Shown here: in pieces, positions 4,461-55,251 of the stretch
Layout: each line of letters starts with the position of its first letter
How positions within the stretch are numbered: the first letter of the stretch is position 1
Assembly (NCBI GenBank): GCA_030062745.1
Contig: CP099841.1
Location: 3,782,001 to 3,846,000 of the forward strand
From: Capitulum mitella
Lineage: Eukaryota; Arthropoda; Thecostraca; Pollicipedomorpha; Pollicipedidae
DNA length: 64,000 nt
Direction of reading: 5' to 3'
The notes under the pieces: generated by a model
The model's database searches: none
What the model was told of the DNA's origin: nothing
What the model saw: the letters and a program-made list of their open reading frames with translations, nothing else
Translations under genes and position numbers: made by a program

Positions 4461-6420
4461 TCTTCGTCATTTTTGTGACTCTGCTAGTGCCAAAAGCAAT
4501 TATTTATTATCACAAACTAGAGCTCTGATTACGAGAGGGATACCAGTTGTTGCCATTAACGGCAATCGGCGACCAAAATTATCTAAAGACCGGTCCAAAA
4601 TTATTGTTAGATCGCATAAGCTTAATGGTCTCATTCCACCAAGAAAAAGTCACCGATCTTTCAAGGCCCCATTTGTTGTCAAACAGACGCCGAAACCATA
4701 CTGTATCAGAAACTGGCCCCTTATCTCGCCAGAATCCTCAGCAGAAGCTAAAACGCGACACAGTTAAAAAAATATGGTTTGCAGTCCCTCGAGCATAGCT
4801 GCATACCTCGGTGACCAGACTTGGCCTGAAAACATATTTTGGAGAAAAAAATGCAGAAAGAATGCAAGATCGGCTTTTGCAAATTACAAGCTCTTGAAGC
4901 CGACCGATCGCCGACAGTCTAAGAAAACCCTCATGGGGGGCAGCCTTCTAGATGCGGTTGGGAGCTAGCTTGATGGAGCTTAAAGCTACTTACTCTTTCG
5001 AGTAAGAAAGTAAATTTTCTGACTTGCCCAAAGAAAGTGCTGTTGAAACATGTCAATAAGATCTGGATAAAAAACTTTCTGTCTAAGAAAATGTTTGATC
5101 AAGTTTCGCAGTCTACATCAGTTAACCTGGATTGGTCTTGTACGTGATCTAGAGAAGTCCAAAGCCAAGGCCTACCTAAGTTTCCAGCGCAGACTAACTC
5201 CGCACGAAGTTTCGTGGCTGCGCGGTGGCTGGCAGCGGCCGTTTCATGTCCAGGTTCGCGCCAGAGTCGCAGTCGAGAAAACGGCGGCCGTCTGTCGCCG
5301 ACGACGGATCGACCGCGCAACTGGCTTTCCGACTTTGTCAGAACGCAGTCGGCAAAGTTATAAACCGATTGTGCAATTTCAAACGTCAAAGCGTGCCAGG
5401 AGCGCAGCAGGAGATGGCAAGAGCATGCTACTTATGCGTAACCTGTTCGAAAGATATGCCCCCAAAATTACGGGCGGTAAGAATTTTTGCTTCCGTCAAT
5501 GGGCTTAATAGCCAAGTGCGACTCACGACTTGAAGTGCGGATAATTTCGACTTCATGCCTTAAACGACGCTGAAGGACTCTATTGACAATCAACTGTTGT
5601 TTATGCTTGTTGCACTGGTTTGGCATCGAATTCCAGCGTTTACCAGCATGTGTTAGCGGAGAGGAGCCCTCGGCCACTGAAACCCACGTCGCTGATGCGG
5701 AAGGCTTCAGAGGCGAGTCAGCAAAACGGTGCGAAGGTGGCCAATGAATCAGCAATTTTGTGACAAGAGAGTACGGCATACAGAACACAGAATACAAAAC
5801 AGTCTAAATGGTGTTCCAAAGGCGCGATGCGGAGCCATATGTGGCGAAAGATGACTGCCGCAAAGCGGAAACGAAATGTGTATTCTAGCAAGGAATGTGC
5901 CGGCATTGGAAATCGGGAGAATTTGAGAAGAACGTTGTGTATGATAGCTACGACATGGCAGTTGCCTGTAAGTAGGCTCCTCCACACGACGGGAATGCTG
6001 TGAACTGTGTCGTAGCTGCAACATAAACAGCCGGTTTTCGCAACAGTTCCAAAGCCATTCCTGCTGCAGATTTGTTTCAGTATTGTCGTAGGAACGCATT
6101 TTAGATGGATTCCTTTCTTCCTTGCCCTTGCCTGAACTGTAGGGCAGACACACAATAGAACAGAAGAGCCTCGGCAAACCAAGCGCACTGTATTCAGATC
6201 GCATCATCAGCTCCTGACCAGGGCTCCAGACATCTGCTCCAGCCCGATGACCATCACACCGGACACGTCAGCCACGTCCCCCCCCACGAGCCGGCAGGGC
6301 TGGGACGTCACGGCGTGTCCGGGACACTGGCTCCGCCGGAGAGGGAGGGGCCCTCCTGCAGATCTTCTCTGAGGGCATGGCCGGCCGGCTCCAGATCGTG
6401 CAGACGTCGCCCACGCCCAG
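4461..6420. other. Upstream spacer of G1, no gene recognised
   Basis: Open frames occur on both strands (for example 5095-5508 + and 5718-6188 -) and recur in units A2 and A3 because the whole unit is duplicated. In A3 the minus-strand frame is broken by a small deletion near 19210, which argues against coding function. The last 200 bases become GC-rich and lead into the G1 promoter. Confidence 0.5.
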
Positions 6421-6506
6421 CAAGGACGGTGCCATGGACGGCCGGTATATAAGGCTCCAGCACCGTCCCGTCGACATCCAGTCGGAGCTCTCTGTCTGAT
6501 CACAAC
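6421..6506 (+). promoter_or_regulatory. Core promoter and leader of G1
   Basis: TATATAAG lies at 6446-6453 and an initiator-like CATCCAGT at 6475-6482, with the predicted first base A at 6480, 34 nt after the first T of the box. A conserved block AAGGACGGTGCCATGGAC (6422-6439) precedes the TATA box and recurs in every copy. GGACGGTGC (6424-6432) and GCACCGTCC (6460-6468) form a perfect inverted repeat around the TATA box. The predicted leader is only 27 nt. Confidence 0.8.
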
Positions 6507-8172
6507 ATGAAGGTCTTTGTGAGTATTTCCAGTTGGACGTGTCCCAGCGTATCTAATTTACGTAGGATTAGAATATGAGGTTGTCGTCCTTTGTTTTTAC
6601 ATCGTACTCTTGTTTTTTCTCGTCTCCGTAGAACATTAAAAAGGAAAGCGGCCTTTCATCAGGTTTACGCACTTCTGGGCTCACTTTCTGATACATTTTC
6701 TGCGCAGTTAAATGTGTATTGAAGACATAATCATGCCATGTTTACTCCGACTGCCGAATCCGATTCCGGATCCGTATCCGGATATTCGATCGGCATCAAG
6801 CCCTATTTGCCCTACACATGATACTATACCCCTACAGCCCCATTTGGCTGATACAGTATAGTTCAGATTCCAGATTTAGTCACGTCGTTGTCATGAAGGC
6901 ATAAATCAATGTTTTATTTCTTTGCAGGTGGTGATTGCTGCTCTAGCTGTGTCGGCCTTTGCCGCCCCCGGCAACTATGCTGGACACAGGAGTGCAGCTG
7001 TCCCCGTTGGCCTGGGCGCCATCGCTGCCCCGGCGGAGCTCAAGACCATCAAGGTGGATGAGGTGAAGGCTGCTCCCGTCACCCTGAACCACGCTGCCCT
7101 CACCTACTCTGCTGGAGCCATCGCCGCTCCCGTGGCCTACTCTGCCGGTGCCTACGCCGCCCCCCTGGGCTACGCTGCCCCCGCTGCCGTGGCTGTGAAG
7201 GCTGCCGCCCCTGTGGAGTTCAAGTCCATCGGTGCCGAAGAATACAACTCTGCTCCCGTCACGGCCAACCACGCCGCCGTCGCCTATTCTGCCGGAGCCT
7301 ACGCCGCCCCCGTGGCCTACTCTGCCGGCGCCTACGCCGCCCCCGTGGCCTACTCTGCCGGCGCTTACGCCGCTCCCGTGGCCTACTCTGCCGGTGCCTA
7401 CGCCGCCCCCGTGAGCTACGCCGCCCCCGCTGCCGTGGCTGTGAAGGCTGCCGCCCCTGTGGAGCTCAAGACCATCAAGGTCGATGAGGTCAAGGCTGCC
7501 CCCGTGGCCTACGCCGCTCCCGTGTCGTACGCCGCCCCTGCTGCCGTTGCTGTGAAGGCCGCCCCTGCCGTGGCCTACGCTGCCCCGGCCGTCACCTACG
7601 CTGCCGCCGCCCCTGCCGTCGTCCGTCAGGAGGTGGAGATCCCCATCACCAAGACGGTCCACTACGCCGACCAGCCCGTCGTCACCGGACACACCACCAC
7701 CATCCACAAGCCGGCCATCGCTGCCCCGGCCATCGCCGCCCCCAGGACCCTCATCGGCAAGACCATCACCAACCCGGCCACCGTCAGCGTGCAGAAGTAC
7801 GCCGCCGAGGTCAGGACCGTCAACCACGTGCCCCAGCCGTACGACGTGCCCTACGACGTGCCTGAGCCGTACGCCGTGCCCACCCCCGTCCACACTGCCC
7901 CCGTGGAGGTGAGGAAGCGCGTGTACGCCCCGGCCGCCTACGCCGCCCCGGTGCACGCTGTCCCTGCTGTGGCCGTGGCTGCCCCCGCTGCTGTCGCTGT
8001 GAAGGCTGCTCCTGCTGTGGCCGTGGCTGCCCCTGCTGTGGCCGTGGCCGCCCCGGTGTCGTACGCTGCGCCGGCCGCCGTCGCTGTGGAGGCCGCCCCG
8101 GTCGTGGAGGTGAAGGCAGCGCCGGCCGCCGTCGAGCTGGAGTCCGGATACCTGCCCCCTGCCCAGGACTAA
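6507..8172 (+). CDS. G1: AAP(A/V)-repeat cuticle-protein-like, secreted, 418 aa
   Basis: Two exons: 6507-6518 (MKVF) and 6928-8172, joined by a 409-nt GTGAGT...TTTGCAG intron in phase 0. The product starts MKVFVVIAALAVSAFA, a clear signal peptide with cleavage expected before APGNY. Residues 17-234 are Ala/Pro/Val/Tyr repeats (four VAYSAGAYAAP units and PAAVAVKAA blocks), with two ELKTIKVDEVKAAP blocks and one EFKSIGAEEYNSAP. Residues about 235-340 form a non-repetitive, more charged core (VVRQEVEIPITKTVHYADQ... to VEVRKRVYAPAAY). The tail ends ESGYLPPAQD. AAP(A/V) motifs and a tiny first exon splitting the signal peptide are typical of arthropod cuticle proteins, so a structural role in cuticle matrix is likely. 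I see no Rebers-Riddiford chitin-binding consensus. Another secreted structural or adhesive protein remains possible. Confidence 0.85.
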
Positions 8173-8340
8173 TGTTCCCATCTCCAACCAACCGGCGGCC
8201 GGCTTCGCTTGGCCAGCGGCTGTCCGGCCGGCCGGCTCAGGCGGCAGATCTTGCATGTGATACTGCTTGTATGATGTGCTTAGGTCAGTGTGTGGTGCCC
8301 AGTCATGTTGTGATCATCTCTTCTCTTTCAATACATTTGA
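8173..8340 (+). promoter_or_regulatory. G1 3' UTR with conserved element and poly(A) signal
   Basis: A GC-rich stretch is followed by AGGTCAGTGTGTGGTGCCCAG and TCATGTTGTGATCA (8303-8316), then the variant poly(A) signal AATACA (8330-8335). TCATGTTGTGATCA is the exact reverse complement of the start-codon segment at 6497-6510. Confidence 0.65.
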
Positions 8341-9483
8341 CGTTCATTAACCCAGCAGCCTCGGCGCCTTGGAGTGTTCAGTTTTGACTCCGCACAAGAA
8401 ACAAACTGCGGGATTGACGTTCATATAAAGCTCCCGTCAAATCGGTTTAGACGCAATTGCAATTCGAGCGGACATGTTAGTACCGAAAAGCGCTCCGAAT
8501 TTCAATAATGAAATATAGGGCAGCTACTGGATGTCAATCGTACAGAAACAGAAGCAAAAGTAGTCACGAGCACGGAGAAAATTCGTTCAGCTTCAGATCA
8601 CAACTGAGACGAACCTAGTCTCTGTGACGCACCGAAACCGCATTTAGGAGGTCGCTTAGCCACTTCAGAGGCGAAATCATTAAGTAGTTGCAAGACTTGC
8701 TACAATAAAGGGTTAACATACTTATGGAGAACTAAAATTAACGAGCTTCAACTGACGCTTGCTAATAATGGCAAATGATAATTCCTAAGTTTCTGATTAC
8801 GTGTTGCATGGGTGATGCAAGACAAGACAGCTCTTCTCATAAGAAAGATTGAAGGAAGATCAGAAGTTTTATGATTCTATGAATCTCAAAATGTAATCAT
8901 TTTGACAGCGATTTGTTTTAAATGGTGAGGTACTTGACACCACTGCACACATGCCGACAAATTACACTGCACAAAATACGAATTCGGCAAAACATGACGA
9001 ATTGCCCTTTATTCTTTTCGATAACAATATACAGTACAGTAGGGAAACTGTTTTTCCAAAAACTTAATAGCTTCTTATCTTTATCGGCCAAGAACTTGAC
9101 CGTAAAACTCTTTCTTTGGAAAACACCCCTGTAAATACCCTGCTGGGCCAAGTTATGAACCGTTTCAAAGCAACTGATGTGCCACATCCGGAGAAATTGA
9201 CCATCAAATCTTGGAATCAAATCACTGGGGGACAAGGCGGTATAAGTACTAGAATTTTGGTCGGTACTTATAAAACCAGTTTGCAACACTACCATTTCTC
9301 TTTAATTCCGGTCTTCAGTCATTTCTGTTCCCCACATTACCGAAAAGTGTTATCATTAAGCTAAGATAGAAACTGAGAGAAAGAAATCGATGTACTAATT
9401 ATCTCCCGACAGTAGTGCTGCTCATCATCTAAAATATATCTGATACCTTTTTTTCCTACGCCGATGATATTTGTTTCCTCCGC
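8341..9483. other. Downstream spacer of G1, no gene recognised
   Basis: AT-rich sequence. Overlapping open frames near 8918-9364 occur on both strands and recur in A2 and, damaged, in A3. They resemble nothing I recognise. They precede the reverse transcriptase fragment in the same orientation and could be more of the same decayed LINE, but that is a guess. Confidence 0.4.
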
Positions 9484-13028: not shown

Positions 13029-13114
13029 CAAGGACGGTGCCATGGACGGCCGGTATATAAGGCTCCAGCACCGTCCCGTCGACATCCAGTAGGAGCTCTC
13101 TGTCTGATCACAAC
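13029..13114 (+). promoter_or_regulatory. Core promoter and leader of G2
   Basis: TATATAAG at 13054-13061; initiator-like CATCCAGT with A at 13088, again 34 nt after the first T. The same AAGGACGGTGCCATGGAC block lies upstream. The leader differs from G1 by TAGGAG in place of TCGGAG just after the initiator. Confidence 0.8.
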
Positions 13115-14769
13115 ATGAAGGTCTTTGTGAGTATTTCCAGTTGGACGTGTCCCAGCGTATCTAATTTACGTAGGATTAGAATATGAGGCTGTCGTCCTTT
13201 GTTGTTACATAGTACTCTTGTTTTTTTCTCGTCTTCGTAGAGCATTGAAAAGGAAAGCGGCCTTTCACCACGTTTATGCACTTCTGGAGCACTCACTTTC
13301 TGATACATTTTCTGCGCAGTTAAATGTATATTGAAGACATAATCATGCCATATTTACTCCGACTGCCGAATCCGATTGCGGATCCGTATCCGGATATTCG
13401 ATCGGCATCAAGCCCTATTTGCCCTACACATGATACTACACCCCTTCAGCCCCATTTGGCTGATACAGTATAGTTCAGATTCCAGATTTAGTCACGTCGT
13501 TGTCATGAAGGCATAAATCAATGTTTTATTTCTTTGCAGGTGGTGATTGCTGCTCTAGCTGTGTCGGCCTTTGCCGCCCCCGGCAACTATGCTGGACACA
13601 GGAGTGCAGCTGCCCCCGTTGGCCTGGGCGCCATCGCTGCCCCGGCGGAGCTCAAGACCGTCAAGGTGGATGAGGTGAAGGCTGCTCCCGTCACCCTGAA
13701 CCACGCTGCCCTCACCTACTCTGCTGGAGCCATCGCCGCTCCCGTGGCCTACTCTGCCGGTGCCTACGCCGCCCCCCTGGGCTACGCTGCCCCCGCTGCC
13801 GTGGCTGTGAAGGCTGCCGCCCCTGTGGAGTTCAAGTCCATCGGTGCCGAAGAATACAACTCTGCTCCCGTCACGGCCAACCACGCCGCCGTCGCCTATT
13901 CTGCCGGAGCCTACGCCGCCCCCGTGGCCTACGCCGCCCCCGCGGCCTACTCTGCCGGCGCTTACGCCGCTCCCGTGGCCTACTCTGCCGGTGCCTACGC
14001 CGCCCCCGTGAGCTACGCCGCCCCCGCTGCCGTGGCTGTGAAGGCTGCCGCCCCTGTGGAGCTCAAGACCATCAAGGTCGATGAGGTCAAGGCTGCCCCC
14101 GTGGCCTACGCCGCTCCCGTGTCGTACGCCGCCCCTGCTGCCGTTGCTGTGAAGGCCGCCCCTGCCGTGGCCTACGCTGCCCCGGCCGTCACCTACGCTG
14201 CCGCCGCCCCTGCCGTCGTCCGTCAGGAGGTGGAGATCCCCATCACCAAGACGGTCCACTACGCCGACCAGCCCGTCGTCACCGGACACACCACCACCAT
14301 CCACAAGCCGGCCATCGCCGCCCCGGCCATCGCCGCCCCCAGGACCCTCATCGGCAAGACCATCACCAACCCGGCCACCGTCAGCGTGCAGAAGTACGCC
14401 GCCGAGGTCAGGACCGTCAACCACGTGCCCCAGCCGTACGACGTGCCCTACGACGTGCCTGAGCCGTACGCCGTGCCCACCCCCGTCCACACTGCCCCCG
14501 TGGAGGTGAGGAAGCGCGTGTACGCCCCGGCCGCCTACGCCGCCCCGGTGCACGCTGCCCCTGCTGTGGCCGTGGCTGCCCCCGCTGCTGTCGCTGTGAA
14601 GGCTGCTCCTGCTGTGGCCGTGGCTGCCCCTGCTGTGGCCGTGGCCGCCCCGGTGTCGTACGCTGCGCCGGCCGCCGTCGCTGTGGAGGCCGCCCCGGTC
14701 GTGGAGGTGAAGGCAGCGCCGGCCGCCGTCGAGCTGGAGTCCGGATACCTGCCCCCTGCCCAGGACTAA
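13115..14769 (+). CDS. G2: AAP(A/V)-repeat cuticle-protein-like, secreted, 413 aa
   Basis: Exons 13115-13126 and 13540-14769, with a 413-nt intron in phase 0. It is nearly identical to G1 and five residues shorter: the SAGAYAAP tract has three units, one replaced by VAYAAPAAYSAGAYAAP. Signal peptide MKVFVVIAALAVSAFA, the non-repetitive core and the tail ESGYLPPAQD are unchanged. A few substitutions separate it from G1, such as Ala for Val in HRSAAAPVG. The open frame, intact promoter and 3' end suggest a functional paralogue of G1, probably a cuticle structural protein. Confidence 0.85.
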
Positions 14770-19656: not shown

Positions 19657-19742
19657 CAAGGACGGTGCCATGGACGGCCGGTATATAAGGCTCCAGCACC
19701 GTCCCGTCGACATCCAGTCGGAGCTCTCTGTCTGATCACAAC
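19657..19742 (+). promoter_or_regulatory. Core promoter and leader of G3
   Basis: TATATAAG at 19682-19689, CATCCAGT with A at 19716 (34 nt), conserved upstream block and the start-codon element TGATCACAACATGA at 19733-19746. The promoter is intact although the gene body is broken. Confidence 0.75.
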
Positions 19743-21251
19743 ATGAAGGTCTTTGTGAGTATTTCCAGTTGGACGTGTCCCAGCGTATCTAATTTACGTA
19801 GGATTAGAATATGAGGTTGTCGTCCTTTGTTGTTACATAGTACTCTTGTTTTTTTCTCGTTTCCGTGAAACATTAACAAGGAAAGCGGCCTTTCACCACG
19901 TTTATGCACTTCTGGAGCACTCACTTTCTGATACATTTTCTGCGCAGTTAAATGTATATTGAAGACATAATCATGCCATATTTACTTCGACTGCCGAATC
20001 CGATTGCGGATCCGTATCCGGATATTCGATCGGCGTCAAGCCCTATTTGCCCTACACATGATACTACACCCTACAGCCCCATTTGGCTGGTACAGTATAG
20101 TTCAGATTCCAGATTTAGTCACGTCGTTGTCATGAAGGCATAAATCAATGTTTTATTTCTTTGCAGGTGGTGATTGCTGCTCTAGCTGTGTCGGCCTTTG
20201 CCGCCCCCGGCAACTATGCTGGACACAGGAGTGCAGCTGCCCCCGTTGGCCTGGGCGCCATCGTTGCCCCGGCGGAGCTCAAGACCATCAAGGTGGATGA
20301 GGTGAAGGCTGCTCCCGTCACCCTGAACCACGCTGCCCTCACCTACTCTGCTGGAGCCATCGCCGCCCCCCTGGGCTACGCCGCCCCCGCTGCCGTGGCT
20401 GTGAAGGCTGCCCCTGCCGTGGCCTACTCTGTCGGTGCCTACGCCGCTCCCGTGAGCTACGCCGCCCCCGCTGCCGTGGCTGTGAAGGCTGCCGCCCCTG
20501 TGGAGCTCAAGACCATCAAGGTCGATGAGGTCAAGGCTGCCCCCGTGGCCTACGCCGCTCCCGTGTCGTAGCCGCCGCCCCTGCTGCCGTTGCTGTGAAG
20601 GCCGCCCCTGCCGTGGCCTACGCTGCCCCGGCCGTCACCTACGCTGCCGCCGCCCCTGCCGTCGTCCGTCAGGAGGTGGAGATCCCCATCACCAAGACGG
20701 TCCACTACGCCGACCAGCCCGTCGTCACCGGACACACCACCACCATCCACAAGCCGGCCATCGCCGCCCCGGCCATCGCCGCCCCGGCCATCGCCGCCCC
20801 CAGGACCCTCATCGGCAAGACCATCACCAACCCGGCCACCGTCAGCGTGCAGAAGTACGCCGCCGAGGTCAGGACCGTCAACCACGTGCCCCAGCCGTAC
20901 GACGTGCCCTACGACGTGCCTGAGCCGTACGCCGTGCCCACCCCCGTCCACACTGCCCCCGTGGAGGTGAGGAAGCGCGTGTACGCCCCGGCCGCCTACG
21001 CCGCCCCGGTGCACGCTGCCCCTGCTGTGGCCGTGGCTGCCCCGCTGCCGTCGCTGTGAAGGCTGCCCCTGCTGTGGCCGTGGCTGCTCCGTAGGCCGTG
21101 GCCGTGGCCCCCTGCTGTGGCCGTGGCCGCCCCGGTGTCGTACGCTGCGCCGGCCGCCGTCGCTGTGGAGGCCGCCCCGGTCGTGGAGGTGAAGGCAGCG
21201 CCGGCCGCCGTCGAGCTGGAGTCCGGATACCTGCCCCCTGCCCAGGACTAA
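19743..21251 (+). pseudogene. G3: frameshifted cuticle-protein-like copy
   Basis: Exon 1 is 19743-19754 (MKVF) and exon 2 starts at 20167 after a 412-nt intron. The frame matches G1/G2 until about 20566, where TACGCC of the paralogues is replaced by TAGCCGCC (net +2), giving a stop at 20569-20571 and a 138-residue product. The core continues in another frame to about 21040, where one C of a C-run is missing, and a further stop and rearrangement lie near 21092. The original stop position would be 21249-21251. The SAGAYAAP tract is reduced to one variant unit (YSVGAYAAP). Promoter and splice sites are intact. It is either a recent pseudogene or carries assembly errors in GC-rich repeats. Confidence 0.75.
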
Positions 21252-21419
21252 TGTTTCCATCTCCAACCAACCGGCGGCCGGCTTCGCTTGGCCAGCGGCT
21301 GTCCGGCCGGCCGGCTCAGGCGGCAGATCTTGCATGTGATACTGCTTGTATGATGTGCTTAGGTCAGTGTGTGGTGCCCAGTCATGTTGTGATCATCTCT
21401 TCTCTTTCAATACATTCTG
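21252..21419 (+). promoter_or_regulatory. G3 3' UTR with conserved element and poly(A) signal
   Basis: TCATGTTGTGATCA at 21382-21395 and AATACA at 21409-21414, unchanged from G1/G2 despite the broken coding region. Confidence 0.6.
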
Positions 21420-26809: not shown

Positions 26810-26811
26810 TA

Positions 26812-28542
26812 CAGTACTGGACATATTATTATGGATTTTTGTAAAAGAAGCTATACTGCTTGGAAACATGGGTGCAGGAGCTGATCGGTATTTCGATGCA
26901 TCGGTATATCGATGTATAAACAATTTCTGAATGCATTTTCATATTCAGTATTTCTAATGAGTACTTTGTATTGATAAAAGCCCGCTTTTAAGCACTCATC
27001 CACTCAATTTGAACGTCATTTTTTGCCCATTTTTAAAAACACAACTTCAGCGCTGGAACCTTTCCAGCTGAGTTCACTCTTGAATTTGACTGGTATTCTA
27101 GTTTCACTTTCGATTCATTCTGGATACAAAAAAGTTAAATTATAGCAAAATAATCACATTTCCATCGATTTATTGACGAATTAGTGAGGATGGGTAAAAG
27201 GGCTGACCTCAGTCCCCGTAAGAAAGGTCAAATAAAGACTTTACTGGAAAATTCTACTCTTAAACAGGTAGAAATCGCCAAGGAATTGAAGGTATCGACC
27301 CAAACTGTTAGTTTAGTTAAGAAAAATTTACAGAAAGACATTCCATTGGAGAACAGGAGAGTTGGAAAATGTGGCCCGAAGAGGAAGACAAGTGCAAGAA
27401 CAGACCGCAAGATTAAAAATATGTCATTGAAGATGAGAAGGGCTTCCTGTCAAAAGATTTCAAGCATTCTTGCTAAAGAAGGGTTCCATGTTCATCGGAA
27501 AACCGTTAGTCGAAGACTCCTGGAGTGTGGACTGAAGGCCTACAGGCCTAGGAAAAAGCCGCGTCTTACCCAGAAAATGATTGAAGCAAGAATGTCATGG
27601 GCAAATGAGCACAAAGAATGGACTGTAGCAGATTGGTCTGAGGTAAATCATTATTACAGAATTCTATATTGATCATACTAATTTTTAGAAATAGTTCTAT
27701 CACTAAGTAATCTGTTTTTAAATTTGTTTGCCTAGAAAATTATACAGGCAATTTTTCGATGAAAATCATGGATCTGTAGAGTAGGATTCTTGATGTCTTA
27801 AAAAAGTTCTCGATAAGCCAGCATCATTAATTCATTTCAGGTGGTGTTCTCTGATGAAAGCACCATATGTGTGCTGGATGACAGGGTTCAGACTGTACGA
27901 CGACGTCCAGGAGAAGAGTTCAAACCTGAATGCCTGAGAAAAACTGTGAAATTTCCTAAAAAAATCATGGTATGGGGAGCAATTTCTACAAGCGGTACAA
28001 GTCGCTTACACATAGTGGAGGGAACTATGAATGCCAGCAAGTACATATCTGTACTAAAGAATCGTCTCCTACCTCAAATCAGGGACTGGGAGCTTGCTGA
28101 TGACTGGATTTTCATGCAAGATGGGGCCCCCTGTCATACTGCCAAGTCAGTGAAGGCATGGTGTGGAGAAAATCAGGTGAAATTGCTCTCTTGGCCAGGC
28201 AACTCACCTGATATGAATCCCATAGAGAACCTATGGGAGGTTCTCAAAAATGAAATACATCAAGTGCCAATTACAAGCAAAACAACGCTGATAGCACGTC
28301 TTATTGAAGTGTGGTTTCATTCTGACAGATTGAAGGAAATGTGCTCAAAGTTGATTGAAGGGATGCCAAAACGTATTGAAGCTCTTTTGAAAGCAAAGGG
28401 AGGACAGACAAAATACTAGAAGGACAATAATAATTTCTCATACTAATAAAATGATATTTGATGTGTTTTTGTCGTATATTTTGATGAAATGAAGCAAATT
28501 TTATGATTTTCTCAAAAATCCATAATAATATGTCCAGTACTG
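26812..28542 (+). mobile_element. Complete Tc1-like transposon (1731 bp)
   Basis: Terminal inverted repeats start CAGTACTGGACATATTATTA. Including the flanking TA they match perfectly over 31 bp (26810-26840 versus 28514-28544). TA dinucleotides at 26810-26811 and 28543-28544 are the expected Tc1/mariner target duplication. The transposase gene is open and spliceable. Perfect termini and an intact gene suggest recent insertion and possibly a mobile copy. Confidence 0.9.
27190..28419 (+). CDS. Tc1-like DD34E transposase, two exons, 343 aa
   Basis: Exon 1 27190-27642 and exon 2 27841-28419, with a 198-nt intron (GTAAAT...TTTCAG, phase 0). ATG 27190 (MGKRADLSPRKKGQ) is the first in-frame ATG. 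The N-terminal part has paired helix-turn-helix DNA-binding character (QVEIAKELKVSTQTVSLV, then QKISSILAKEGFHVHRKTVS). The catalytic triad is visible: D in VVFSDEST, D in IFMQDGAPCHTA, and E in SPDMNPIENLW, with 34 residues between the last two (DD34E). Length fits the usual 340 residues. It would cut and paste the surrounding element in the nucleus. AATAAA follows at 28445-28450. The intron is unusual, as many Tc1-like transposases are intronless. Confidence 0.88.
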
Positions 28543-28839
28543 TACAGTTTCAGACCGACTGCTCAACAATTAACGGTCCAGGAAATCGGCGACTTACAAG
28601 AAGAAACACCGCAAAACCAGGATTGACGCAGTTGTACAGAAACGAAAGTTCAAAAAGAGATTTAGCCATAGCGAAAAAAACGGTACTCGTGTCGCGATGT
28701 GCTTACTCAGAGCTTCATCATGATTTCGTCTTTTGCTTTCTTTTGAACAAGCTTCCTGTTCTGACACACAGCCTTCAACAGGGACTGCTTCTGGTCCTCC
28801 TTCGTAGTCAGGGTCGTGTTGAATTGCTTGATGTGGGCA

Positions 28840-34158: not shown

Positions 34159-34486
34159 AAGACGCCGTTCTACCTTTTAACACATCTCGACGTCCGACAG
34201 TACGCACGAATCCCTTACAGCCATCTGACACTATAACCCCCTCTCCCCATTCCCACCGGCGATGGTCTGAGAGAGGGTCCTCCAGCGGCCCACCGCCAGC
34301 GGAGGGAGGGGGCACGGGGTGAGGCGGGAGTCGCCTCGCCGCGTGCGGAACCCTCCGTGCCGGGTGGGGCCTCGCTCTGCATCGCCAGCGGCGCACAAGG
34401 ACGATGCCATGGCCTCCGCGGCGGGTATAAAAACGCACCCACCGCCAGTGCCGGCATCCAGTCGCGGTCCTCTGCCTGATCACAAC
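34159..34486 (+). promoter_or_regulatory. Promoter region and leader of G4
   Basis: TATAAAAA at 34426-34433 and CATCCAGT with A at 34460, 34 nt after the first T as in all copies. AAGGACGATGCCATGG (34398-34413) matches the conserved upstream block, but the rest of the GC-rich region differs from both A and B types. Leader and start-codon element TGATCACAACATGA (34477-34490) are conserved. Confidence 0.75.
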
Positions 34487-35721
34487 ATGAAGGCCTTTGT
34501 GAGTATGGAGTGCGGAGGCGCCAGTGTGGGAAAGCTTGCGTGAGATTGGTGTGCTCTGCTGCTGTCTACGTATTTAAGGAAGCAGTGTGCTCCTGTGTCC
34601 CTCGTGTTCTGTTCTTTCCATGACGTTGTAAACTCTTACCTGTTGATGTGTTTTGTTACATGTCACGCGGATAATGCAATCTATTTTGAAAATTGAATTT
34701 CACGGTTTGAAAACAGAAGCCTTTTTGTCACGTCTTCTGGTCGTGCACGCCTCAAGTTCCTTTGGAGAAACTATGCTGATAGAGAATATTCTTCTTTCAG
34801 GTGGTGATTGCTGCACTAGCTGTGACGGCGTCTGCCGCCCCCGGCAACTATGCCGCTCTCAGGAGTGCAGCTCTCCCCATTGGCCTGGGCGCCATCGCTG
34901 CCCCGGCGGAGCTCAAGACCATCAAGGTGGATGAGGTGAAGGCTGCTCCCATCGCCCTGAACCATGCTGCCCTCACCTACTCTGCTGGAGCCATCGCCGC
35001 CCCCCTGGGCTACGCCGCCCCTATCGGCTACGCCGCCCCTGCTGCCGTGGCTGTGAAGGCTGCCGCCCCTGTGGAGCTCAAGACCATCAAGGTCGATGAG
35101 GTCAAGGCTGCCCCCGTGGCCTACGCCGCTCCCGTGTCGTACGCCGCCCCTGCTGCCGTTGCTGTGAAGGCTGCCCCTGCCGTGGCCTACGCTGCCCCGG
35201 CCGTCACCTACGCTGCCGCCGCCCCTGCCGTCGTCCGTCAGGAGGTGGAGATCCCCATCACCAAGACGGTCCACTACGCCGACCAGCCCGTCGTCACCGG
35301 ACACACCACCACCATCCACAAGCCGGCCATCGCCGCCCCGGCCATCGCCGCCCCCAGGACCCTCATCGGCAAGACCATCACCAACCCGGCCACCCTTAGC
35401 GTGCAGAAGTACGCCGCCGAGGTGAAGACCGTCAACCACGTGCCCCAGCCGTACGACGTGCCCTACGACGTGCCTGAGCCTTACGCCGTGCCCACCCCCG
35501 TCCACACTGCCCCCGTGGAGGTGAGGAAGCGCGTGTACGCCCCGGCCGCCTACGCCGCCCCGGTGCACGCTGCCCCTGCTGTGGCCGTGGCTGCCCCCGC
35601 TGCCGTCGCTGTGAAGGCTGTCCCTGCTGTGGCCGTGGCTGCCCCCGCTGCCGTCGCTGTGAAGGCTGTCCCTGCTGTGGAACTCAAGTCGGCCTACCTG
35701 GCCCCCGCCCGCAATTGGTAA
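34487..35721 (+). CDS. G4: AAP(A/V)-repeat cuticle-protein-like, secreted, 310 aa
   Basis: Exons 34487-34498 (MKAF) and 34801-35721, with a 302-nt phase-0 intron. Signal peptide MKAFVVIAALAVTASA, mature start APGNYAALRS. This is the shortest open member: it lacks the SAGAYAAP tract and the EFKSIGAEEYNSAP block and has only two C-terminal 16-residue units (AVAVAAPAAVAVKAVP). The non-repetitive core (VVRQEVEIP to RKRVYAPAAY) is conserved. It ends ELKSAYLAPARNW, unlike AHAW of G5-G7. The minimal layout may be close to ancestral or result from repeat loss. A secreted cuticle-matrix role is inferred as for G1. Confidence 0.85.
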
Positions 35722-35900
35722 ATTCGTTTCATCATCAGTCTCAAGCATCCGCAAATTATCGCACTGGTGGACAAATGTAACGTGTTCCAGCTCACGCGGC
35801 GAGCAACGAGTGTTATCGGTGTGATTGGGATATTGCCAGGTCAGTGTGTGGTGCCCAGCCTTGTTGTGATCATCTTCCTCAATATATTTCCATCTTCACT
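35722..35900 (+). promoter_or_regulatory. G4 3' UTR with conserved element and poly(A) signal
   Basis: B-type 3' UTR. CTTGTTGTGATCA at 35860-35872 has one mismatch to the element of other copies, followed by the variant signal AATATA at 35881-35886. Confidence 0.6.
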
Positions 35901-38452
35901 ACCGCTGCTTTGCAATTTATAAAGGATTAGGGACAAGCAAAGAAACCAGGGCAATAATGTAAACACTTGTATGAAGTGCTAGACAATATGTTATCTTCAA
36001 AAATACTTCAAATGCGTCGTTATATATATACCTCTATCTCGTATCAGGTTCATATGAAATTTTCATGTCAAAGTCATATCAAATACGTCGTTTCAATCTA
36101 TGTTATTACGGAAAATCTTCTTGATCTGTATGCTCGAGTGCCATACAATGCACGCGAAAAGAGGAAATGAATTGCTAACGTTTTATACATTGCAGTAATA
36201 CAACCGTTGCCACCAGAGAGGTGAAGAGCCGTCTTTTCCCTTATCCTGGGATTTTGTTTATTACCAAAAAATGCTTCAAATACCTAAAACGACATGCCAG
36301 AAAATGTTAGCATTTCAAGTCATAAAACTCATCAGTGATATCTAACATCCCCAAGTTGTTCGCTTTTGCAGTTCTACCTATGGTAAAAACAACAGCCAGA
36401 CTAATAAAATACCAACCATAAGTGTTTTCAGACAACTCGCAGCAATATGTTAGTATAAATCATCTTGAAAGATTACATGATAACATATATTATCGGAATA
36501 TTTTTCGATCATACATTTGCTTTGCATGAGCGCAATAAAATGATATGCTGTTAAATTTGCAAGATCCGATTCTTTCAAATCTAATACAACCGAAAGCTTT
36601 AATGAACAGTCGATGTCTATTTACAATTCTTAATCCTGTAAAAGTACAGCCACCAATGGAAAAAATATTGTCAAAAAGAAAAATGTAAATACTGCCGAGG
36701 TAGTTCCAACCGGTTCATTATGAAGATGTGGTAACAGTGTGAATGCATGCTGGTCAGGTGGGAAACCTTCCTACACCTATAATTCATTTTTTGTTGCAGT
36801 CTAGATTACACAGGTTTACAGAGGCAGTCACCCAAAATGTTGCAGAATTATTACCATCAACCGTGAACTGCTGAAAAGGCTGAAACGCTAAACCAGCTGA
36901 ATCAGAAGGGCACACCGCCACTTTCTGCACCTTCACATCATCAATATTTATGTGATACCAATCACATCATGCAGGAAAAATATCATTAAAAATCTCAAGA
37001 AAAACACAGTTAATCGACAACAGCAAAAACAGGCGCAGAACATGTCAACCACATGCGAAGTTTTGTCTCTCATGTGGTGCTTGAGGCCCAAATAAAAAAA
37101 TGCACGACCTAGCGAAAAGTGGCAGCACTTGGAGCAATGCACTAAATGTGATGTACATTGAAAATATTTGTACCTAATGACAACAAGTAAACCCAAAATT
37201 TGCAGGTTGGCCAGCACGCAAACGTTTTTGAAACTCAGGGCAGTGGTACTGTATGGGCACCTCATACCCATCGCATGAGATTTCTTCATCCGCCATTGAC
37301 GGGTCCACGCCCCGCTTTGGGCGTGTTCACCCGCTGCCTTCACGACAGAACCTCGTGTTCATCGTTTCGCATACTCCACATTTCCGTACTACTCGTTGTC
37401 GTTACACGCTACAGCGTGGTCAACGACGAACGTTTATCCAATGGTACTGAGTAAACCAGAAGCCTTTATTCGTATTTTGGGGATCACTTTCAAGCCATCT
37501 CACACGTCGTGGACGGATAAAGTACTCGTTTCCAACCTATAAATGTAGCAGGTCCTCGGTCCGCCAGCTTAAGTTATCATCAACCAACGGCAACATCATA
37601 AAAATACACATAGATACATTTAAGACTCGTCTTCGTTACCGAAACCATTCCCGTCCCGTTTTATTATTTTATTACGCATCACTTTGGCTAATATGTCACC
37701 ATCACGTGACAACCAATGCATTACCATTTCAATGCAATTCTGCAACAGAATGAGTACAACGCGAATGCACAGCTAAACAAACATGGGATGCTTTATAAAA
37801 TGGCAGAATCAAGGTCACAATTCAACTTCATATGAAGAGCACTAGACAGCCTCGTCGGAAAATGCGAGGCGTTTGTAACGAGTCCATGATGGGGTCAATG
37901 AGACACTGCTTTGTACATTTGAGCGAGCGCCTACGCCAAGCCCAGCGTCCACACTTTCGCAACAATAGTTTTGGTGACAGCTTGTGATCTGTCAACTCAA
38001 CACGCTGCTCTACTTACACAGGGTACCGCACGATCAATACTCGAATCGATCGGAAGCACCTCACAATTCACCCGCGTGTCATCACTCAAAAACATGGCGC
38101 CCTTGCAGCATCGTGCGCACCAAAATCCGCAAGAATACATCGGGTCATTTATCCGCTGCATCTAAGCTGACACGCTGGCGGGTAATCTATTCCCATTCCA
38201 CGAATCAACCGCGCCACTCGTGACGCTTGGGTTCGAGCTCGGCGCAACAGGGACACCAACACTCGATACCGGTATTTTTCTTATCGCTGTCGAATAAATC
38301 CAGGTGTTAATTGGGAACTCTCTGCAATTTCCTTCGACTGCTTGGTAAAATTTATGCAAAACCTTTGTACAAAGGGTTAACTCGTCATGCGCAGGTGACA
38401 TTGTTTTCAGGGCAGATCTAGATGAGCCTCTGTAACATAGATCATAAACTTC
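35901..38452. other. Intergenic DNA, no gene recognised
   Basis: The first 150 bases match the 3' flanks of G5 and G6, showing shared ancestry of B-type units. The rest holds short open frames only (131 codons at 36948-37343 on - is the longest). No recognised repeat or gene. Confidence 0.45.
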
Positions 38453-42870: not shown

Positions 42871-43061
42871 TGCCCGGGGAGAGATATTCTTCCGTTAACG
42901 CCCCGTCCGTGACTGGGCGGGGCCAGGCTGTCTAACCAAGACACCCTCACTGGTCCGCCGGACTGCAGCCTCGCGCAAGGACGGTGCCATGGACGGCCGG
43001 TATATAAGGCCCCACCGCCGTCCCGTCCACATCCAGTCGGAGATCTCTGTCTGATCACAAC
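42871..43061 (+). promoter_or_regulatory. Promoter region and leader of G5
   Basis: TATATAAG at 43001-43008, CATCCAGT with A at 43035 (34 nt). AAGGACGGTGCCATGGAC lies upstream. A conserved GC-rich stretch from about 42885 (GTTAACGCCCCGTCCGTGAC) is shared with G6 and G7 only. Start-codon element TGATCACAACATGA at 43052-43065. Confidence 0.8.
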
Positions 43062-44635
43062 ATGAAGGCCTTTGTGAGTAGACAGAACAATCAGCGGTAT
43101 TTGCTGTACGCTTTAGTGTTCTATTAGTCTAAAGCAAGAAACACATAGCAGTAGGTTTTTCCGATATTGGTACTAAATATTAGATTTCCATAATTTAAGA
43201 CTCATAACTTTGTTTTGCACAACGTTCCTTTGCTTCACTCGATTGCCTGAATCCTTTTAAAGAAAGCTATGGTGGTAGATGAAAAATTTTATATTATCAA
43301 TATTTGATAAGACCAAGAATCAACATTGTCATCCATCTTCAGGTGGTGATTGCTGCACTAGCTGTGACGGCGTCTGCCGCCCCCGGCAACTATGCCGCTC
43401 TCAGGAGTGCAGCTCTCCCCATTGGTCTGGGCGCCATCGCTGCCCCGGCGGAGCTCAAGACCATCAAGGTGGATGAGGTGAAGGCTGCTCCCGTCGCCCT
43501 GAACCACGCTGCCCTCACCTACTCTGCTGGAGCCATCGCCGCCCCCCTGGGCTACGCTGTCCCCGCTGCCGTGGCTGTGAAGGCTGCCGCCCCTGTGGAG
43601 TTCAAGTCCATCGGGGCCGAAGAATACAACTCTGCTCCCGTCACGGCCAACCACGCCGCCGTCGCCTATTCTGCCGGAGCCTACGCCGCTCCCGTGGCCT
43701 ACTCTGCCGGAGCCTACGCCGCCCCCGCGGCCTACTCTGCCGGCGCTTACGCCGCTCCCGTGGCCTACTCTGCCGGCGCCTACGCCGCCCCCGTGAGCTA
43801 CGCCGCCCCCGCTGCCGTGGCTGTGAAGGCTGCCGCCCCTGTGGAGCTCAAGACCATCAAGGTCGATGAGATCAAGGCTGCCCCCGTGGCCTACGCCGCT
43901 CCCGTGTCGTACGCCGCCCCTGCTGCCGTTGCTGTGAAGGCTGCCCCTGCCGTGGCCTACGCTGCCCCGGCCGTCACCTACGCTGCCGCCGCCCCTGCCG
44001 TCGTCCGTCAGGAGGTGGAGATCCCCATCACCAAGACGGTGCACTACGCCGACCAGCCCGTCGTCACCGGACACACCACCACCATCCACAAGCCGGCCAT
44101 CGCTGCCCCGGCCATCGCCGCCCCCAGGACCCTCATTGGCAAGACCATCACCAACCCGGCCACCGTCAGCGTGCAGAAGTACGCCGCCGAGGTCAGGACC
44201 GTCAACCACGTGCCCCAGCCTTACGACGTGCCCTACGACGTGCCTGAGCCGTACGCCGTGCCCACTCCCGTCCACACTGCCCCCGTGGAAGTGAGGAAGC
44301 GCGTGTACGCCCCGGCCGCCTACGCCGCCCCGGTGCACGCTGCCCCTGCTGTGGCCGTGGCTGCCCCCGCTGCCGTCGCTGTGAAGGCTGCCCCTGCCGT
44401 GGCCGTGGCTGCCCCTGCTGCCGTTGCTGTGAAGGCCGTCCCTGCTGTGGCCGTGGCTGCCCCCGCTGCCGTTGCTGTGAAGGCTGCCCCTGCTGTGGCC
44501 GTGGTTGCTCCCGCTGCCGTCGCTGTGAAGGCTGCCCCTGCTGTGGCCGTGGCTGCCCCCGCTGCCGTCGCTGTGAAGGCTGCACCTGCTGTGGAGCTCA
44601 AGTCGGCCTACCTGGCCCCCGCCCACGCCTGGTAA
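43062..44635 (+). CDS. G5: AAP(A/V)-repeat cuticle-protein-like, secreted, 434 aa
   Basis: Exons 43062-43073 and 43343-44635, with a 269-nt phase-0 intron ending ATCTTCAG. Longest member. Signal peptide MKAFVVIAALAVTASA. The repeat region carries four SAGAYAAP units and both ELKTIKVDE blocks (the second as KVDEIKAAP). The conserved core is followed by five 16-residue units (AVAVAAPAAVAVKAAP with VP and VVAP variants) and ELKSAYLAPAHAW. The in-frame sequence upstream of exon 2 (MIRPRINIVIHLQ) is intron, since the splice acceptor and first exon are conserved in all copies. A secreted cuticle structural protein is inferred. Confidence 0.85.
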
Positions 44636-44815
44636 ATTCGTTTCATCACCAGTCTCCAGCATCCGCAAATTATCCGACTGGTGGACAAATGTGACGTGTT
44701 GCAGCTCACGCGGCGAGCAGCGAGTGTTATCGTTGTCATTGGGATATTGCCAGGTCAGTTCGTGGTGCCCAGCCATGTTGTGATCATCTTCCTCAATATA
44801 TTTTCATCTTCATTA
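44636..44815 (+). promoter_or_regulatory. G5 3' UTR with conserved element and poly(A) signal
   Basis: CATGTTGTGATCA at 44774-44786, exact reverse complement of the start-codon region, then AATATA at 44795-44800. Confidence 0.65.
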
Positions 44816-45815
44816 CTGCTGCTTTGCAATTTATAAAGGACTATGGATGAAGAAAGAAACCAGAATGATAATGTAGACGTAGGTAAGAGGTGCTAGATAA
44901 TTTTTCATCTTAAAAACATTTCAAAGCCGTTCTTATGAGCATGTGACGTCTTTTCCATCAACGCCATTACGAACATTTTCATGATCTGTATGTATGGTAC
45001 GAGTGTCATACAAACAGGAAATAAATAGCTAACTGTTATACCTTGTAGGATTACAAACGTTGTCACTTGTGAGGTAAAGAGCCGCCTGTTCCCTGATTGC
45101 AGGTATTTGTCAACTGGCAAAAAAATACCTTGGATACCAGAAACGACCGTAAAACAGTCCTAAATATACACGAGAATCACACTTGTGCTTGATTGGACGC
45201 TTGACTGGAATCGACTCCGACTCAATAACAAGGCAAATTACTCCGAATCCGATTCCAATTCCAGGCAACCAAATACAAGTGGAATCGATTTCGAGTCCAG
45301 TTCCGACGTGACTAAAACTGTCTGGTTACGAATCCGAATCCTATTCAGACAGATAATGCAAGTACAATATAACCATAACGTAATACAGATCAATGTGATC
45401 AATAACAAATTATGGATATATATGCATGTATATAGATATATACGTCCATGCATCATATGCACATACACGATACCAATAAGACGTTAATAATCAGGTAGGT
45501 AAACATATGATACTAATAATCAGGTAGATGAATATATGATATTAATAATAAGGTAGGTCTTCCGTTACCAGGGGTCAATTTTAACTCTATGGCAGCAACC
45601 ATGGATTCCCAATGTAGATCTGTCCTCCCGTTGTTTTAAGCAGGTCCCCTCCCCTATATCTTCTATCAGTTTTAAAGAGGGGAAGAAAGCTTTTAAGATG
45701 GTAAATGATAATCAAATATTAAAAATGAAAATTAACGCAGGTTAAAATAAAGCGGCTAAATGCGTTGACAAAATCATTCGGGGGAACGTTTGGTAGTCAG
45801 GGCCTTGCTGGTCTT
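44816..45815. other. Spacer between G5 and X6, no gene recognised
   Basis: The first 110 bases match other B-type 3' flanks. The remainder is unique in the window, with short TATATG-rich stretches around 45415-45540. No gene. Confidence 0.45.
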
Positions 45816-48560: not shown

Positions 48561-48747
48561 CTGGGAGAGGTTTTCTTCCGTTAACGCCCCGTCCGTGACT
48601 GGGCGGGGCCAGGCTGTCTAACCAAGACACCCTCACTGGTCCGCCGGACTGCAGCCTCGCGCAAGGACGGTGCCATGGACGGCCGGTATATAAGGCCCCA
48701 CCGCCGTCCCGTCGACATCCAGTCGGAGATCTCTGTCTGATCACAAC
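48561..48747 (+). promoter_or_regulatory. Promoter region and leader of G6
   Basis: TATATAAG at 48687-48694, CATCCAGT with A at 48721 (34 nt), same upstream block as G5 and G7. Start-codon element at 48738-48751. Confidence 0.8.
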
Positions 48748-50226
48748 ATGAAGGCCTTTGTGAGTAGACAGAACAATCAGCGGTATTTGCTGTACGTTTT
48801 AGTGTTCTATTAGTCTAAATGCAAGAAACACATAGCAGTAGGCTTTTCCGATATTGGTACTAAATATTAGATTTCCATTATTAAAGACTCATAACTTTGT
48901 TTTGCACAACGTTCCTTTGCTTCACTCGATTGCCTGAATCCTTTTAAAGAAAGCTATGGTGGTAGATGAAAAATTTTATATTATCAATATTTGATAAGAC
49001 CAAGAATCCACATTCTCATCCATCTTCAGGTGGTGATTGCTGCACTAGCTGTGACGGCGTCTGCCGCCCCCGGCAACTATGCCGCTCTCAGGAGTGCAGC
49101 TCTCCCCATTGGCCTGGGCGCCATCGCTGCCCCGGCGGAGCTCAAGACCATCAAGGTCGATGAGGTGAAGGCTGCTCCCGTCACCCTGAACCACGCTGCC
49201 CTCACCTACTCTGCTGGAGCCATCGCCGCCCCCCTGGGCTACGCCGCCCCCGCTGCCGTGGCTGTGAAGGCTGCCGCCCCTGTGGAGTTCAAGTCCATCG
49301 GGGCCGAAGAATACAACTCTGCTCCCGTCACGGCCAACCACGCCGCCGTCGCCTATTCTGCCGGAGCCTACGCCGCTCCCGTCGCCTATTCTGCCGGAGC
49401 CTACGCCGCTCCCGTGGCCTACTCTGCCGGCGCTTACGCCGCTCCCGTGGCCTACTCTGCCGGCGCCTACGCCGCCCCCCTGAGCTACGCCGCCCCCGCT
49501 GCCGTGGCTGTGAAGGCTGCCGCCCCTGTCGAGCTCAAGACCATCAAGGTCGATGAGGTCAAGGCTGCCCCCGTGGCCTATGCCGCTCCCGTGTCGTACG
49601 CCGCCCCTGCTGCCGTTGCTGTGAAGGCCGCCCCTGCCGTGGCCTACGCTGCCCCGGCCGTCACCTACGCTGCCGCCGCCCCTGCCGTCGTCCGTCAGGA
49701 GGTGGAGATCCCCATCACCAAGACGGTCCACTACGCCGACCAGCCCGTCGTCACCGGACACACCACCACCATCCACAAGCCGGCCATCGCTGCCCCGGCC
49801 ATCGCCGCCCCCAGGACCCTCATCGGCAAGACCATCACCAACCCGGCTACCGTCAGCGTGCAGAAGTACGCCGCCGAGGTGAAGACCGTCAACCACGTGC
49901 CCCAGCCTTACGACGTGCCCTACGACGTGCCTGAGCCGTACGCCGTGCCCACCCCCGTCCACACTGCCCCCGTGGAGGTGAGGAAGCGCGTGTATGCCCC
50001 GGCCGCCTACGCCGCCCCGGTGCACGCTGCCCCTGCTGTGGCCGTGGCTGCCCCCGCTGCCGTCGCTGTGAAGGCTGCCCCTGCTGTGGCCGTGGTTGCT
50101 CCCGCTGCCGTCGCTGTGAAGGCTGCCCCTGCTGTGGCCGTGGCTGCCCCCGCTGCCGTCGCTGTGAAGGCTGCACCTGCTGTGGAGCTCAAGTCGGCTT
50201 ACCTGGCCCCCGCCCACGCCTGGTAA
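48748..50226 (+). CDS. G6: AAP(A/V)-repeat cuticle-protein-like, secreted, 402 aa
   Basis: Exons 48748-48759 and 49030-50226, with a 270-nt phase-0 intron. Signal peptide MKAFVVIAALAVTASA. It has four SAGAYAAP units, the conserved core and three C-terminal 16-residue units (the middle one AVAVVAPAAVAVKAAP), ending ELKSAYLAPAHAW. It differs from G5 mainly by two fewer C-terminal units; the VVAP variant shared with G5 shows that units can be aligned one to one. The gene is open with intact promoter and 3' end, so it is probably expressed alongside G5 and G7. Confidence 0.85.
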
Positions 50227-53570: not shown

Positions 53571-53757
53571 CTGGGAGAGGTTTTCTTCCGTTAACGCCCC
53601 GTCCGTGACTGGGCGGGGCCAGGCTGTCTAACCAAGACACCCTCACTGGTCCGCCGGACTGCAGCCTCGCGCAAGGACGGTGCCATGGACGGCCGGTATA
53701 TAAGGCCCCACCGCCGTCCCGTCCACATCCAGTCGGAGATCTCTGTCTGATCACAAC
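53571..53757 (+). promoter_or_regulatory. Promoter region and leader of G7
   Basis: TATATAAG at 53697-53704, CATCCAGT with A at 53731 (34 nt), conserved upstream block. Start-codon element at 53748-53761. Confidence 0.8.
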
Positions 53758-55251
53758 ATGAAGGCCTTTGTGAGTAGACAGAACAATCAGCGGTATTTGC
53801 TGTACGTTTTAGTGTTCTATTAGTCTAAATGCAAGAAACACATAGCAGTAGGCTTTTCCGATATTGGTACTAAATATTAGATTTCCATTATTAAAGACTC
53901 ATAACTTTGTTTTGCACAACGTTCTTTTGCTTCACTCGATTGCCTGAATCCTTTTAAAGAAAGCTATGGTGGTAGATGAAAATTTTTATATTATTAATAT
54001 TTGATAAGACCAAGAATCCACATTCCCATCCATCTTCAGGTGGTGATTGCTGCACTAGCTGTGTCGGCCTTTGCCGCCCCCGGCAACTATGCCGCTCTCA
54101 GGAGTGCAGCTCTCCCCATTGGCCTGGGCGCCATCGCTGCCCCGGCGGAGCTCAAGACCATCAAGGTGGACGAGGTGAAGGCTGCTCCCGTCGCCCTGAA
54201 CCACGCTGCCCTCACCTACTCTGCTGGAGCCATCGCCGCCCCCCTGGGCTACGCTGCCCCCGCTGCCGTGGCTGTGAAGGCTGCCGCCCCTGTGGAGTTC
54301 AAGTCCATCGGGGCCGAAGAATACAACTCTGCTCCCGTCACGGCCAACCACGCCGCCGTCGCCTATTCTGCCGGAGCCTACGCCGCTCCCGTCGCCTACT
54401 CTGCCGGCGCCTACGCCGCCCCCGTGAGCTACGCCGCCCCCGCTGCCGTGGCTGTGAAGGCTGCCCCTGCCGTCGCCTATTCTGCCGGTGCCTACGCCGC
54501 TCCCGTGAGCTACGCCGCCCCCGCTGCCGTGGCTGTGAAGGCTGCCGCCCCTGTGGAGCTCAAGACCATCAAGGTCGATGAGGTCAAGGCTGCCCCCGTG
54601 GCCTACGCCGCTCCCGTGTCGTACGCCGCCCCTGCTGCCGTTGCTGTGAAGGCCGCCCCTGCCGTGGCCTACGCTGCCCCGGCCGTCACCTACGCTGCCG
54701 CCGCCCCTGCCGTCGTCCGTCAGGAGGTGGAGATCCCCATCACCAAGACGGTCCACTACGCCGACCAGCCCGTCGTCACCGGACACACCACCACCATACA
54801 CAAGCCGGCCATCGCTGCCCCGGCCATCGCCGCCCCCAGGACCCTCATCGGCAAGACCATCACCAACCCGGCTACCGTCAGCGTGCAGAAGTACGCCGCC
54901 GAGGTGAAGACCGTCAACCACGTGCCCCAGCCGTACGACGTGCCCTACGACGTGCCTGAGCCGTACGCCGTGCCCACTCCCGTCCACACTGCCCCCGTGG
55001 AGGTGAGGAAGCGCGTGTACGCCCCGGCCGCCTACGCCGCCCCGGTGCACGCTGCCCCTGCTGTGGCCGTGGCTGCCCCTGCTGCCGTCGCTGTGAAGGC
55101 TGCCCCTGCTGTGGCCGTGGCTGCCCCCGCTGCCGTCGCTGTGAAGGCTGCCCCTGCTGTGGCCGTGGCTGCCCCCGCTGCCGTTGCTGTGAAGGCTGCC
55201 CCTGCTGTGGAGCTCAAGTCGGCGTACCTGGCCCCCGCCCACGCCTGGTAA
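53758..55251 (+). CDS. G7: AAP(A/V)-repeat cuticle-protein-like, secreted, 407 aa
   Basis: Exons 53758-53769 and 54040-55251, with a 270-nt phase-0 intron. The first exon is B-type (MKAF) but the signal peptide continues VVIAALAVSAFA, which is the A-type sequence of G1-G3 rather than AVTASA of G4-G6. The next residues (APGNYAALRSAALPIG) are B-type again. The repeat region has a distinctive duplication: a SYAAPAAVAVKAAPAVAYSAGAYAAP segment follows the first two SAGAYAAP units. Core conserved; three C-terminal 16-residue units; ends ELKSAYLAPAHAW. The patchwork suggests gene conversion. A secreted cuticle structural role is inferred. Confidence 0.85.

Follow-up and report, generated by a model that had tools for sequence, protein, structure and literature searches.

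Comparison with Described Systems

In flaviviruses, the elements that cyclize the genome lie near the start codon. Long-range pairing between the genome ends inhibits new initiation (PMC6765113), and this is the effect that the initial annotation of the DNA studied here proposed for an array of tandem genes; the flavivirus case, however, concerns a viral RNA, and no covariation was seen in the array. Among cellular messages, an interaction between the 5′ and 3′ UTRs of p53 mRNA, together with the binding of RPL26, has been shown, and translation rises (Chen and Kastan 2010, via the review PMC3474909). That system shares with the array the complementarity between both ends of one cellular mRNA, but differs from the account in this review in that the array genes are known from sequence alone and that the start codon itself lies inside their match. 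The K box, TGTGAT, is a hexamer of insect 3′UTRs (PMC3261227). As in the tandem gene complex described there, TGTGAT occurs here in the 3′UTRs and miR-2 genes are present in the genome, whereas the match in the array is limited to six bases and the family is cuticle-like, unlike the Notch target genes of that source. The fourth comparison is with RR cuticle genes (PF00379), to which two genes treated below (L096 and L097) belong, with a TATA box, a short first exon and a TCACAACATGA start; the protein predicted for the first array gene differs from them in that a Pfam search gave no match.

The matches listed by one literature search all dealt with viral RNA, 'cuticle protein' occurring in none of them; the matches of another search were not on arthropods, and a search with peptide words of the array family gave no match. 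If the ends of these messages pair, viral genome cyclization would have a parallel in cellular RNA, in a family probably switched on and off with the moult. If they do not, an end-to-end match of 11-14 bp that stems from tandem copying and a stereotyped context of the start can be mistaken for a switch, and the case shows why folding alone is no evidence. It also draws attention to a poly(A)-proximal 3′UTR motif that persists in this family where the sequence around it does not.

Gene Array and Complementary Segments

The window, that is, the whole 64,000-nucleotide stretch that was analysed (contig C3, 3782001-3846000), carries a set of tandem cuticle-like genes with TGATCACAACATGA spanning the ATG. 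The initial annotation had quoted five complementary pairs (G1, G2, G3, G5 and G6), all of which were found where it placed them, letter for letter. Two copies that it omitted, G4 (ATG 34487) and G7 (ATG 53758), have the same 5′ segment with an imperfect 3′ element, so the set totals seven (G1-G7). The features are as follows, in window positions:

6497-6510, plus strand, G1 5′ segment TGATCACAACATGA, containing the ATG (6507)
6507-6518 and 6928-8172, plus strand, G1 coding sequence (predicted, 418 aa)
6519-6927, plus strand, G1 intron (predicted), after the 12-nt first coding exon
8303-8316, plus strand, G1 3′ element TCATGTTGTGATCA, complementary to the start over 14 bp, with 8283-8302 as its conserved flank
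13105-13118, plus strand, G2 5′ segment
14900-14913, plus strand, G2 3′ element, 14 bp
19733-19746, plus strand, G3 5′ segment, reading frame of G3 broken
21382-21395, plus strand, G3 3′ element, 14 bp
34477-34490, plus strand, G4 5′ segment, same segment as in the other copies
35859-35872, plus strand, G4 3′ element CCTTGTTGTGATCA, 11 bp ended by a mismatch that faces the U of AUG
43052-43065, plus strand, G5 5′ segment
44773-44786, plus strand, G5 3′ element CCATGTTGTGATCA, 13 bp
48738-48751, plus strand, G6 5′ segment
50364-50377, plus strand, G6 3′ element CCATGTTGTGATCA, 13 bp
53748-53761, plus strand, G7 5′ segment, same segment as in the other copies
55399-55412, plus strand, G7 3′ element CCATGTTGTGATTA, 13 bp, one of them G.U

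The 3′ element lies shortly before a poly(A)-like signal, as had been noted, although the distance to AATACA in G1 was counted as 13 nt and not 14 nt. This spacing of 13 nt holds in G1-G3, and that to AATATA or an AATATA-like signal is 8 nt in G4-G7. Each of the seven genes has a TATA box about 60 nt 5′ of the ATG, which places both segments within the predicted mRNA, and a predicted 12-nt first coding exon with GTGAG directly after it. Exon 2 encodes an Ala/Val/Pro-rich protein with a signal-like start, and the putative label cuticle-like was given from composition and secretion signal only. The G3 frame is broken after 138 codons, with several indels relative to G2 and 9 mismatches over 1046 aligned bases, and the copy (19743-21395) resembles a recent pseudogene. 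As G3 retains a perfect pair despite its broken frame, such a pair can reflect recent copying and not selection. The window also contains an element at 26810-28544, presumably of the Tc1/mariner family, with 32-nt inverted repeats at 26810 and 28513 and two transposase-type ORFs (27190-27672 and 27967-28419).

Excess over Chance and Predicted Folding

Gene by gene, the 39-nt start region was searched against the 157 nt of the 3′ end for the longest run of Watson-Crick complementarity, and its length was set against 300 mononucleotide shuffles. The complements of 14 or 13 nt in G1, G2, G3, G5 and G6 were reached in none of the 300 shuffles, which had a mean near 6 nt and a maximum of 9-11 nt; the 11 nt of G4 were reached once, and those of G7 (11 nt without the G.U) never. 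Exact inverted pairs of 13 nt lying 1-2.5 kb apart numbered 11 in the window, five of them being the pair of start and 3′ element; ten block shuffles gave 0-4. Within a single gene, complementarity between the two ends is, consequently, beyond chance. However, the evidence counts roughly once, because G1-G7 are tandem copies of one array, with intron identities of 96% between G1 and G2, 98% between G5 and G6 and 99% between G7 and G6, that between G4 and G6 being only 50%.

On the pairing reading, the element next to the poly(A) signal would bind the start region within one and the same mRNA, looping the message and holding back initiation or protecting the message until it is opened, a reading that we consider unlikely although deserving of some weight. 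In its favor, the segments can form 11-14 bp in all seven genes, and in the predicted mRNAs a helix of 12-14 pairs was obtained, with duplex energies from -15.7 (G4) to -20.1 (G1-G3) kcal/mol and the AUG closed in six of the seven, the U being left open in G4. The same calculation speaks against giving this helix much meaning, since any complementary pair of such size folds: of 12 pairs of complementary 14-mers, drawn at random with unchanged composition and placed in the G6 mRNA, all 12 paired, with mean probabilities of 0.92-0.99, so that the predicted helix is no more favorable than arbitrary complementary segments. When the 3′ element of the G6 mRNA was shuffled, the AUG remained less than 0.2 unpaired in 10 of 12 cases. 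Folding was therefore rejected as evidence for pairing, given that random pairs fold equally and the AUG is mostly closed anyway. A search of window positions 6400-8500 with the Rfam 15 covariance models gave no match up to E = 1.

Conservation of the Two Segments among Paralogues

The 14 nt of the 5′ side are unchanged in all seven genes, and the 3′ element varies at three of its 14 columns with no compensating 5′ change. A pair is lost through two of these changes, one at column 1 in G4-G7 and one facing the U of AUG in G4; through the third, in G7, a G-C pair becomes G.U. Compensation between the segments was sought among the paralogues G1-G7 and not found. Change in one segment without the other, which had been named as the outcome that would speak against the proposal, is thus partly what the paralogues present, the 3′ side altering at three columns and the 5′ side never. 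The bases facing the AUG themselves vary: CATG in G1-G3 and G5-G7, CTTG in G4, and, in two relatives described below, CATA in GX and CCCC in G8.

The statement that the 3′UTRs of the two subfamilies have little else in common did not hold, as G1 and G6 share GGTCAGTGTGTGGTGCCCAG at 20 of 20 positions directly 5′ of the element. Together with the element (13/14), this makes a block with 33 of 34 positions identical, compared with 39/88 (44%) in the 3′UTR upstream of it and 107/267 (40%) in the intron; the 5′UTRs are identical at 26 of 27 positions. The conserved 3′ block, of about 34 nt, exceeds the complementary part, and across G1-G7 the flank, which has no complementarity, varies at 2 of 20 columns against 3 of 14 in the element.

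Copies that change or keep one side alone make two separately kept signals likelier than an RNA switch. We therefore favor, with a little better than even confidence, the reading that the context of the start and a 3′UTR motif close to the poly(A) signal are kept separately, their complementarity having been fixed in the ancestor of the array and then copied. The 5′ segment would be part of a conserved stretch from the TATA box to the start (promoter, 5′UTR and start context), and the 3′ element would be the inner part of the conserved block just 5′ of the poly(A) signal. The most lasting 3′ piece is TGTGAT(CA), 8 nt (G4-G8 and GX) or 13 nt (G1-G3) before the signal, and this core would most likely be read single-stranded by a trans factor, such as a protein that binds RNA or processes 3′ ends, or a microRNA of the miR-2 type, the last being a candidate reader because TGTGAT is the K-box hexamer. 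We infer from these sequences that selection probably does not act on pairing itself and that the 3′ core may be read by a factor. The conservation of the non-complementary flank, equal to that of the element, supports separate signals. Against them stands the coincidence itself, improbable for a single family (0/300 shuffles), as well as the loss of the 3′ core in a further relative, G9, and the fact that the changed pair of G7 can still form as G.U.

Relatives outside the Set

Genome-wide searches covered 477 Mb on 16 contigs, and the miR-2 and RR cuticle genes that they gave agree with an arthropod source, perhaps a barnacle. The protein search gave ten places, seven of them in G1-G7, the other three being G8 (L075), G9 (L073 with L089) and an opposite-strand copy, L077. 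The 3′ end of G8 reads CTGTGATCA-N6-TCAATAAA, with the spacing of G4-G7, and keeps the core TGTGATCA; its start region, CAGTGGACAGCGCAACATGA, has a longest complement of 5 nt to its own 3′ end, so that the core stands without a 5′ partner, which argues against pairing. G9 has neither element intact; 64 of 300 shuffles equalled its longest complement of 7 nt or surpassed it. In L077 the start reads GTCATCAACATGA, and no counterpart of the 3′ element was seen in the 500 nt after its stop. Within the window there is, in addition, a truncated copy, GX:

57478-57491, plus strand, GX 3′ element TCATATTGTGATCA, in a 5′-truncated family copy with no start region of its own

Family similarity begins at about 57081 in GX, and the region 57028-57500 holds only the C-terminal part and the 3′UTR, behind a TA-rich stretch. 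Relative to G1, GX keeps 13 of the 14 element positions and 11 of the 20 flank positions (Fisher p 0.024); relative to G6, the values are 12/14 and 11/20 (p 0.076). The excess is of borderline significance, and the better keeping of the element in a copy without a start region supports separate signals. TGTGAT is the most lasting piece, being present in nine of nine (G1-G8 and GX) and missing in G9; the bases that face the AUG do not persist in this way.

What had been claimed about a loop is hence borne out as regards the complementarity and the in silico helix closing the AUG in six of seven genes, while the switch fares poorly: there is no compensation, the G8 core lacks a partner and random pairs fold alike. 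The alternative offered with it, a binding site used at both ends, fits the 3′ side better.

A Possible K Box for miR-2

A special form of the separate-signals reading would identify the 3′ element as a K box for miR-2 type microRNAs (seed AUCACA), its resemblance to the start context CACAACATG being incidental. The conservation of TGTGAT in nine of nine 3′UTRs is consistent with this, as is the presence of miR-2 in the genome (RF00047; four matches, two above the cut-off), with the miR-2 family genes located as follows:

L090-L093, contigs C8 and C12, miR-2 family genes, TATCACAGCCAGCTTTGATGAGC present on both contigs

The CTGTGAT of G8 would give a 7-base match under the usual seed rules, and L097 reads TGTGATA. 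However, a site of at least seven bases was not found in G1-G7, where T precedes TGTGAT and C or T follows it, leaving a match of six bases with G.U at the next position. Hexamers are also frequent by chance, the conserved 20-nt flank would be left unexplained, and the hexamer is missing from G9 and from L096, so that we regard the K box as an improbable identity for the element.

Second Case on Contig C8

A search for TATAWA-N-TCACAACATGA, with 13 matches genome-wide against 6 in the control, led to L096 and L097, twin RR cuticle genes on contig C8 with a Chitin_bind_4 domain (PF00379). The 3′UTR of L097, a gene unrelated to the array, carries CATGTTGTGAT, a 10-nt complement of its own start reached in 1 of 2000 shuffles, and thus offers the pairing reading a second instance. 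Its twin L096 has the same TCACAACATGA start, but CATGATTTGTATAATT in the 3′UTR and a longest complement of 5 nt; the two differ on the 3′ side alone, and a start of this kind without the element counts against pairing.

A TATA box followed by CACAACATGA occurs at other gene-like starts, such as multi-copy sets on C7, C11, C13 and C8, so that CACAACATGA appears to be a start context in its own right. This pattern exceeds the reversed control by a modest margin (54 matches against 40), which means that many of the 36 non-family places are not gene starts. The 3′ pattern, which requires an AATAWA signal and so misses elements without one, was followed through 100 of its 111 matches (control 71), ending on C13 and thus short of the two start places on C14 and C15. 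Merging repeats reduced the starts from 54 to 43 places and the 3′ matches from 100 to 98, and three start places sharing their bases with a 3′ match on the other strand were left out of the count. Between the resulting 36 non-family start places and 95 non-family 3′ places, from those 100 of 111 matches, one coincidence on the same strand within 5 kb was found (L097), against 0.018 expected. This is the strongest result against separately kept signals and speaks for pairing; the count, however, was made after L097 had been seen and is no independent test. It also gave no support to a rule that an CACAACATG start implies an CATGTTGTG 3′UTR, since only 1 of the 36 non-family places with TATA and CACAACATGA has the element before AATAWA downstream on the same strand, and this rarity again counts against pairing.

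Taken with the array, L097 could suggest a broader start-codon lock of arthropod cuticle mRNAs, which we hold to be improbable. The start (UCACAACAUG; in the array UGAUCACAACAUGA) would pair with a poly(A)-proximal CAUGUUGUGA, keeping the messages closed and circular until a moult signal, and the arrangement would need two or more origins, one in the Ala/Val/Pro array on C3 and one in the RR cuticle gene on C8, with free loss in sister copies. Genome-wide, CATGTTGTGAT-AATAWA had 6 matches (control 2); those on C9, within an open frame, and on C14, with no clear gene, were rejected, as neither has CAACATG in the preceding 2.5 kb.

Possible Inverted Site and Other Genome-Wide Patterns

Another reading would treat the two segments as one DNA site, inverted at both gene ends, either bound by a factor that joins the ends or serving an antisense start at the 3′ copy. 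Read on the reverse strand, the 3′ end gives TGATCACAACATG, and two copies have a TATAAA there roughly 59 nt upstream of the element, an arrangement like that of the sense promoter:

35859-35921, minus strand, promoter lookalike of G4, TATAAA about 59 nt before the element
44774-44835, minus strand, promoter lookalike of G5, TATAAA about 59 nt before the element

The antisense TATA was, however, seen in G4 and G5 only and not at the other copies, the antisense ATG is lost in G4, G8 and GX carry the 3′ site alone, and the long antisense ORFs are probably shadows of GC-rich coding sequence. An antisense gene at the 3′ end was rejected as not conserved across copies, and the inverted site as a whole appears very improbable. 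TGATCACAACATG has 32 matches in the genome (control 8), 12 of them within the array; among the 9 of the 20 outside matches whose flanks were inspected, no family start was recognised.

As a general 3′-end motif, TGTGATCA before CAATAAA proved weak, with 31 matches against 11 for the reversed pattern. At two of these sites, L094 and L095, no obvious coding end was seen by eye. G8 and GX are among the 31, and 7 of the 31 share a repeat-like spacer. The pattern TCACAACATG gave 1336 matches against 653.
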